Shown here: positions 19,175-23,572 of the stretch, in pieces
How the letters are laid out: every line of letters starts with the position of its first letter
Position numbering within the stretch: the stretch's first letter is position 1
Source of the DNA: Rhizobium sp. Q54
Lineage (GTDB): Bacteria > Pseudomonadota > Alphaproteobacteria > ATCC43930 > CGMCC-115725
DNA: 60,102 bases
Assembly: GCA_945861155.1 (NCBI GenBank)
Contig: CAMATN010000012.1
Span: 1-60,102, forward strand
Reading direction: 5' to 3'
Made by a program: the position numbers and the translations under genes
Notes under the pieces: generated by a model
Databases searched by the model: none
Told to the model about the DNA's origin: nothing
Seen by the model: only the letters and a program-made list of their open reading frames with translations

Positions 19175-21488
<2,314 letters not shown>

Positions 21489-21658: not shown

Positions 21659-23572
21659 GTGTCGATGCCCGCGCTGTGTTTGTCGAGTTTATCCGCTGGT
21701 TTTGCACGGCGAATCGCGGGGATCGCGCTGCTCGCGCTCGCCGCCTGCGCAGGGCAGGAGCGCCTCTCGTCCGACGCCGCCTCGTCGCATGTCGGCGGCC
21801 CGCTATTCGCCCGGGCGCTGGACGAGATTGGCGATCTTTACATCGAGACCGTAACGAGCCGGCGCATTGCCATGTCGGGGGCGGCGCGGCTGGCGACGAT
21901 AGACGACAAGCTCGGTGTCGGCGACAGCTTTGGAACCGGGTCCGGCGGCACGCTGACGCTGCGCTATGACGGTCGCGACATCGCGTTTTACGCGAAGCCA
22001 GCCGATAACAATTCGCGCGAATGGGGAGAAATGATCGCTACCCTGATCGCGACCGCAAAGCAGGCCTCGCCGCGCCTCGCGGCCGCGGCGCCGGAGAGCA
22101 TCGAAAAGGCCGTGTTCGATGGCATGACCGCGGCGCTCGACCGCTTCTCGCGCTATTCCACGGCGGAGATCGCCCGCGACCAGCGCGCGGCGCGCAGCGG
22201 CTTCGGCGGCATCGGGATCACGCTCGACGGAACAAACGACCAGTTCCGCGTCACCGCGGTGACGCCGCAGAGCCCTGCGGACCGCGCCGGGATCCGGCCG
22301 GAGGACCAGATCGTCGCTGTCGACGGGGTGGCCACGACCGGGTGCCTGCATCACGACGTGATTCATCGGTTGCGCGGCCCGATCGGCAGCCCCGTCGCGC
22401 TGAGGGTGCTGCAGGCCGGCATGGCACAGCCGCGCGACCTGCGGTTGCAGCGGGCTTCGGTCTCCGAGCCGACCGTGACCGCCTCGCGCGACGGCGGCAT
22501 CGCGGTTTTCCGCGTCAACACCTTCAACCACCGGACGACCCAGCGCGTTGCCGAGGCCTTGGCGGAGGCACAGCACCAGACCGGCGGACGGCTCGCCGGC
22601 GTGGTGCTCGATTTGCGCGGCAACCCGGGCGGGTTGCTCGACCAGGCGGTCAGCCTCGCAGATTTGTTTCTCCGCGACGGTCCGATCGTGTCGGCGGTCG
22701 GCCGCCATCCGGCCAGCCGCCAGCATTTCAAGGCGTCCGGAAACAGCGTCGCGCCGCTCGTGCCGCTGGCGGTGTTGATCAACGGCGGCTCCGCCTCGGC
22801 GTCTGAAATCGTCGCCGCGGCGCTTCAGGATGCCGGGCGCGCCGTCGTCATCGGCAGCTCGTCCTACGGCAAGGGGACCGTGCAAACGGTGTTGCGCTTG
22901 CCGAACAACGGCGAATTGCTGCTGACTTGGGCACGGCTCGTGGCACCGTCCGGCTATTTGCTGCAGGCGCATGGGGTGGTCCCAACGCTGTGCACCGCCG
23001 ATCTGCCGGACGACACGAACTCGCTCGCAATCGGATTGCAGCGGGCATCCGTGTCGCGGGCCGGCGGACCGGCCGCCGCGCGCGCCGCTCTCGACGAGCG
23101 CGCGTGGTCGGAACTGCATCGCTCGTGCCCGGCGCGCCGTACCCGCCCGGCGGTCGATCTTGCGCTGGCGACGCGGGTGCTTGCGGACACCAAGCTTTAC
23201 GGCGAGCTATTGCACGCTCTGCCGGCAGCGGCCCGGGGCGCGCAAACCGCGTCGGTCCGGCATTGCAACACTACCCGGCGGTGGCGCCGGGCGGGGGTGG
23301 GCCTGGGGTGGGATGGCCCTCGGGCGGGCCGGCCTTGCCTTGACAGAAACCCGCGGCGCGTTATCTTCACCAGAGGCTTACCGTCAAACCTCGCGAGGCT
23401 GCCAATGGCAAAGACCAATACTGTCCTGATCAAGCTGGTCAGCACCGCGGATACCGGGTTTTTCTACGTGACGAAAAAGAACCCCCGGACCAAAACCAAC
23501 AAGCTCGAACTGAAGAAGTTCGATCCTGTCGCGCGCAAGCATGTCGTCTTCAAGGAAGCCAAGATTAAATAG
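21659..23572 (+). CDS. S41-family C-terminal processing protease, lipoprotein; frame continues into rpmG
   Basis: The GTG at 21659 has a good upstream AGGGGGA. The N-terminus carries a lipoprotein signal, ALLALAAC with Cys30. A PDZ domain lies at about 180-250 ([17 protein letters not shown]). The S41 catalytic domain follows with Ser380 in GGSASASEI and Lys405 in SYGKGTVQ, spaced as in CtpA proteases. Recognisable protease sequence ends near residue 530. From there the frame stays open through low-complexity Arg/Gly-rich codons and the rpmG promoter, then enters rpmG in register, so its stop is the L33 stop. Either the true stop was lost or a protease-L33 fusion is made. Expected location: membrane-anchored, periplasmic. 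Confidence 0.8.
23340..23367 (+). promoter_or_regulatory. rpmG promoter
   Basis: TTGACA at 23340-23345 is followed after 16 bases by TATCTT at 23362-23367, a near-consensus housekeeping promoter 38 bases before the rpmG ATG. It lies inside the open frame that continues from the upstream protease, which supports rpmG as an independently transcribed gene. Confidence 0.75.
23405..23572 (+). CDS. rpmG: 50S ribosomal protein L33
   Basis: A 55-residue large-subunit ribosomal protein. It starts [20 protein letters not shown] and ends [11 protein letters not shown], typical of the proteobacterial form without zinc-binding cysteines. A GAGG Shine-Dalgarno lies 6 bases before the ATG and a strong promoter about 40 bases upstream. 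It is in the same reading frame as the upstream S41 protease with no intervening stop. A terminator hairpin follows, shared with the convergent pleD. Confidence 0.96.

Follow-up and report, generated by a model that had tools for sequence, protein, structure and literature searches.

An S41 protease reading frame that continues into rpmG in a Rhizobium assembly: probably an accident of gene crowding, or else a sequencing error

C-terminal extension and gene fusion by loss of a stop codon have been described in yeast and Drosophila (PMC4494051); there, loss of an upstream stop runs a reading frame into downstream sequence and once, putatively, in yeast, into the next gene, much as at the locus described here. 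No fusion of an S41 protease to ribosomal protein L33 was found in the literature searched. The S41 carboxyl-terminal processing proteases (CTPs), whose top PDB sequence match here is 7rpq ("Probable carboxyl-terminal protease", which we take to be CtpA of Pseudomonas aeruginosa), share with the protease at this locus a PDZ and S41 core, a Ser/Lys/Gln set of residues, a signal peptide and helices after the core. The bL33 (RpmG) at this locus is, by reading of its letters, of the form without CxxC, and is a full-length 55-residue domain with its own promoter and start.

The window analysed (the whole stretch of 60,102 nucleotides, positions 1 to 60,102 of contig CAMATN010000012.1 in assembly GCA_945861155.1 of Rhizobium sp. 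Q54) departs from both systems. The protease frame runs 107 codons beyond the region homologous to other S41 CTPs, with a tail past residue 530 that has no counterpart in 27 aligned relatives, and the rpmG start codon, unlike that of an ordinary bL33, falls inside a longer open frame. This is a single frame of 637 codons on the + strand, opening with GTG and free of internal stops. The initial annotation had described it as open from 21659 through the rpmG promoter, with the rpmG ATG at 23405 in register and a shared stop at 23570-23572, and all of this was verified, the stop being TAG. The features are as follows.

21659..23572, + strand: continuous open reading frame of S41 protease, linker and bL33, 637 amino acids (ORF list, domain and family profile matches)
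21659..23248, + strand: S41 carboxyl-terminal processing protease, residues 1-530 (profile matches, alignment)
21737..21748, + strand: lipobox Leu-Ala-Ala-Cys30, closing the signal peptide (sequence; Cys30 in 26 of 28 aligned sequences)
23249..23404, + strand: linker of 52 codons, without homology, G-rich and predicted to be disordered (junction and protein alignments, AlphaFold)
23340..23367, + strand: rpmG promoter, TTGACA-16-TATCTT, within the protease frame (promoter-like sequence; junctions of relatives)
23395..23398, + strand: GAGG, likely the rpmG ribosome-binding site, 6 nt 5' of the ATG (sequence; GCGAG-like at the same place in many relatives)
23405..23572, + strand: rpmG, complete bL33 of 55 amino acids and sole L33 match in the genome (genome and profile search)

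The frame lies in the order topA, a small GIY-YIG-like ORF, rnr, S41 protease and rpmG, with PleD-like and DivK-like genes on the opposite strand; the S41 and L33 parts were identified by search and the neighbours named from their translations. The rnr frame carries a short in-frame repeat at about 20100-20160 of the window, which translates into Ala-Asn-Gly-Gly units.

Both halves of the frame look intact. Domain matches place PDZ at residues ~181-250, Peptidase_S41 at 281-443 and Ribosomal_L33 at 590-635. The protease passes the curated family cut-off of TIGR00225 (248.5 bits against 218.6) and that of PF03572 (149.7 against 24), and Ser380, Lys405 and Gln409, which we take to be the catalytic residues from a motif spacing like that in the CTP literature, are identical in all 28 aligned sequences (27 relatives and the window). 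Its N-terminus combines a hydrophobic signal peptide with the lipobox cysteine; Leu-Ala-Ala-Cys30 is presumably a lipoprotein signal by the lipobox rule, and the protease is thus predicted to be an exported lipoprotein. GC in the protease core is 0.84 at the third codon position against 0.70 and 0.55 at the other two. The L33 part matches TIGR01023 (rpmG_bact) over residues 583-637 of the frame and positions 1-56 of the 56 in the profile, with 76.8 bits against a cut-off of 23.95, and it is the only L33 match in a genome rated 96.87% complete. Between the two, homology to the protease fades at about residues 520-530 in the alignment with relatives, which bears out the earlier reading that it fades near residue 530. 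AlphaFold predicts the protease core with high confidence and gives residues 535-600, which take in the first 18 residues of L33, a pLDDT below 50; block means over L33 residues 601-637 are 56-69, and because the alignment behind the model held no L33 rows the pLDDT values for L33 carry little information. A joint alignment of protease and L33 gave no invariant columns, its L33 rows were seemingly misplaced, and it was left out of the results.

Expression of L33 appears to be provided for separately. The promoter, GAGG and ATG of rpmG are laid out as in relatives, and the promoter recurs in 11 of 11 aligned junctions as TTGACA (TTGACT in one) with TATCTT or TATTTT. Since promoter and start are conserved for rpmG itself, L33 need not depend on the fusion, and this conservation suggests that free L33 is still made from the gene's own promoter, ribosome-binding site and ATG. 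The diversion of L33 by the protease, which had been raised at the outset, is therefore unlikely. A simple terminator scan listed no + strand terminator between 21676 and 23700, so that read-through transcripts, and with them some fusion protein, are possible.

The junction was compared within the same taxonomic order using 21 of 43 genomes, the window's included; 20 of the 42 others gave a protease-L33 pair on one stretch, and all 20 have a stop between the protease and the rpmG ATG. In 11 pairs that stop falls within the 5' leader at a distance of 15-24 nt from the ATG, in two it falls in the -35 box and in six upstream of the -35; in the remaining pair (G018) it lies 76 nt before the ATG, and the promoter picked there, scoring 8 of 12, is probably mistaken. 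All the leader stops are in genera g1 and g11, where 11 of 12 relatives have one (six of the seven others of the window's genus and all five genomes of g11 having the pair, four of the nine g11 genomes giving no junction match), and in them the protease coding sequence spans the whole rpmG promoter. In these relatives the site corresponding to 23340-23367 is thus a promoter written within coding sequence.

No fusion was met elsewhere either. Among 80 loci fetched from named public records, 29 were counted as protease-upstream-of-L33 pairs on the same strand (50 held L33 only, and L085 was dropped with its L33 on the minus strand), and all 29, including three whose protease stop is 775-1888 nt from rpmG, have a stop between the two genes; L061 and L062 of this set are apparently genomes G029 and G001. 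In a class-wide sample of 385 genomes, 102 (among them the window's) matched at a strict threshold with at most three candidates scored per genome; most matches ended before L33, adjacency was read from those reaching its end, and the 13 other genomes so covered each have at least one stop, five of them exactly one. A further 35 locus rows, three of them with no L33 on the stretch, likewise gave no fusion. These sets overlap in part; a conserved S41-L33 architecture was found in none of the 20 order pairs, 29 named pairs and 13 class genomes. Some class genomes showed long open frames, G387 (1022 amino acids) among them, and these were checked as possible further fusions; none of the 35 rows was one, and the extra length in G387 lay upstream of S41. 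At that locus (L161) the S41 frame stays open for 517 more codons upstream of the match, making a frame of 1022 codons.

The frame relation of protease to rpmG differs among the 20 order-level pairs, being 0 in nine, 1 in nine and 2 in two, which indicates that no fusion or readthrough is maintained, and a conserved readthrough or dual-product gene was rejected on this ground. Nine relatives (G001, G002, G004, G009, G017, G029, G036, G257 and G318) have the protease in the rpmG frame with a single intervening stop.

What sets the window apart is the length of its linker. The stretch between the conserved Leu-Tyr codons (near residue 517) and the -35 box measures 145 nt in the window and 41-90 nt in ten relatives, a difference of 55-104 nt. 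The spacing is a multiple of three in eight of the ten, where the -35 is read TTG-ACA (Leu-Thr) and the stop comes later in the leader, and 2 mod 3 in the other two, where the frame ends at the TGA within the -35. It is 1 mod 3 in the window, where the -35 is read CTT-GAC, a class found in none of the ten. Across junctions L003-L013, where it ranges from 41 to 90 nt, no spacing of 1 mod 3 occurs; only the window has this class, in which the protease frame would pass the promoter reading Leu-Asp. The idea that the extra length came from a repeat or an insertion was rejected: 23237-23345 matched only itself genome-wide, and a DNA search with the junction matched only one of the seven other genomes of the genus, over its 3' part.

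From 23100 onwards the first stops in the two remaining forward frames are at 23341, where the -35 box contains a TGA, and at 23427; the frame of the protease has no stop left but that of rpmG. The 56 codons from 23237 to 23404 stay open by chance with a probability of 0.49 if the local sequence is simulated with a first-order Markov model and of 0.40 if the composition of the whole window is used, and the chance of being in the rpmG frame is about one in three. With the protease stop gone, an open linker is therefore not unlikely; what is unusual is the absence of that stop.

We propose that the two genes are probably a tandem pair whose upstream member, the exported S41 protease, no longer has a stop of its own, that rpmG keeps its own expression, and that the fusion has no selected function. 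In relatives the protease coding sequence already extends across the rpmG promoter, and its 3' end is 15-24 nt from the ATG. A change in linker length would have shifted the protease frame relative to the promoter by a number not divisible by three, leaving the stop of rpmG as the next one. This shift is present in the assembled sequence and is presumably present in the living genome. L33 would still arise from its own signals, and synthesis of the fusion would require transcription from the protease promoter to run on through rpmG; the product would be exported as a lipoprotein, its basic tail disordered, and would probably be trimmed or tolerated. The intact catalytic-type residues and L33, together with the predicted disorder of the linker, support this account.

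The main competing explanation, which we regard as possible but rather unlikely, is that the linker, which is G-rich, carries a length error of sequencing or assembly that masks the real stop of the protease. If a single base had slipped, the protease would terminate at one of two TGA codons: the one within the -35 box (23341-23343), as happens in G001 and G009, or the one at 23427-23429, in which case it would overlap rpmG in a different frame. An indel in the G-rich linker would look identical, no other examined S41-rpmG pair is fused, and the spacing class of the window is the one absent from the relatives. In PMC4494051 the one putative gene fusion by stop loss, in yeast, is judged an assembly error; the present case is judged from assembled sequence. 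Against such an error, 22 gene-size stretches of this genome (29.5 kb; 15 of them in the window) were compared with relatives and showed no frame break, in a test that detects only breaks with matches on both sides. In another search, seven queries flagged for more than one frame were taken as shadow frames or extensions of neighbouring genes. The 20 contigs listed measure 51-89 kb, decreasing from C1, which suggests a short-read assembly, and indel errors are rare in such assemblies. No run of G in the linker exceeds 5, and most of the length difference from relatives lies beyond the reach of a one-base slip. The initial annotation had posed loss of the stop, under which every protease chain might end in L33, against a sequencing error that hides it, and this is still the right pair of choices. 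Its proposed comparison of the junction in relatives established a stop before rpmG as the usual state and does not settle this genome, whose nearest relatives share only ~60-65% of protease residues, so that they neither date nor confirm the event.

Readings that give the fusion a function fare much worse. A two-product gene, supplying free L33 from the internal promoter and an exported protease-L33 fusion with a selected role (degradation tag, RNA binding or control of L33 supply), would agree with the open frame and with an intact L33 that has its own promoter and start, but we consider it very improbable: it occurs in one genome only, the frame relation varies, the linker is unconserved and predicted to be disordered, and the fused L33 would lie outside the cytoplasm. 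At least as doubtful is one frame yielding free L33 together with a lipid-anchored protease-L33 in the envelope, with a basic tail that serves to bind nucleic acid or to mark the protease for turnover. The earlier suggestion that a membrane-anchored protease carrying L33 could tether ribosomes is likewise unlikely, since the signal peptide and lipobox would export the fused L33 by placing the C-terminus outside the cytoplasm. Nor does the protease resemble a pseudogene in decay, with a 3' end that has ceased to matter. Its tail is unconserved and its stop is lost, as decay would predict, but the frame is full-length with Ser380, Lys405, Gln409 and the lipobox intact, the third-position GC of the core stands well apart from that of the other positions, and the core fold is predicted confidently, which makes decay highly unlikely.

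The fused frame is known from the DNA sequence of one assembly of one species. Nothing found supports a working protease-L33 protein, and the real open frame in the assembly is best read as a stop loss in a pair of genes that already overlapped at the promoter, or else as a small assembly slip; the locus also cautions against taking any frame that joins two domains for a functional fusion. If real, the locus would be a snapshot of how neighbouring bacterial genes can fuse, in which an upstream gene overgrows the promoter of the downstream gene and then loses its last stop, and the downstream gene would keep its own expression throughout.
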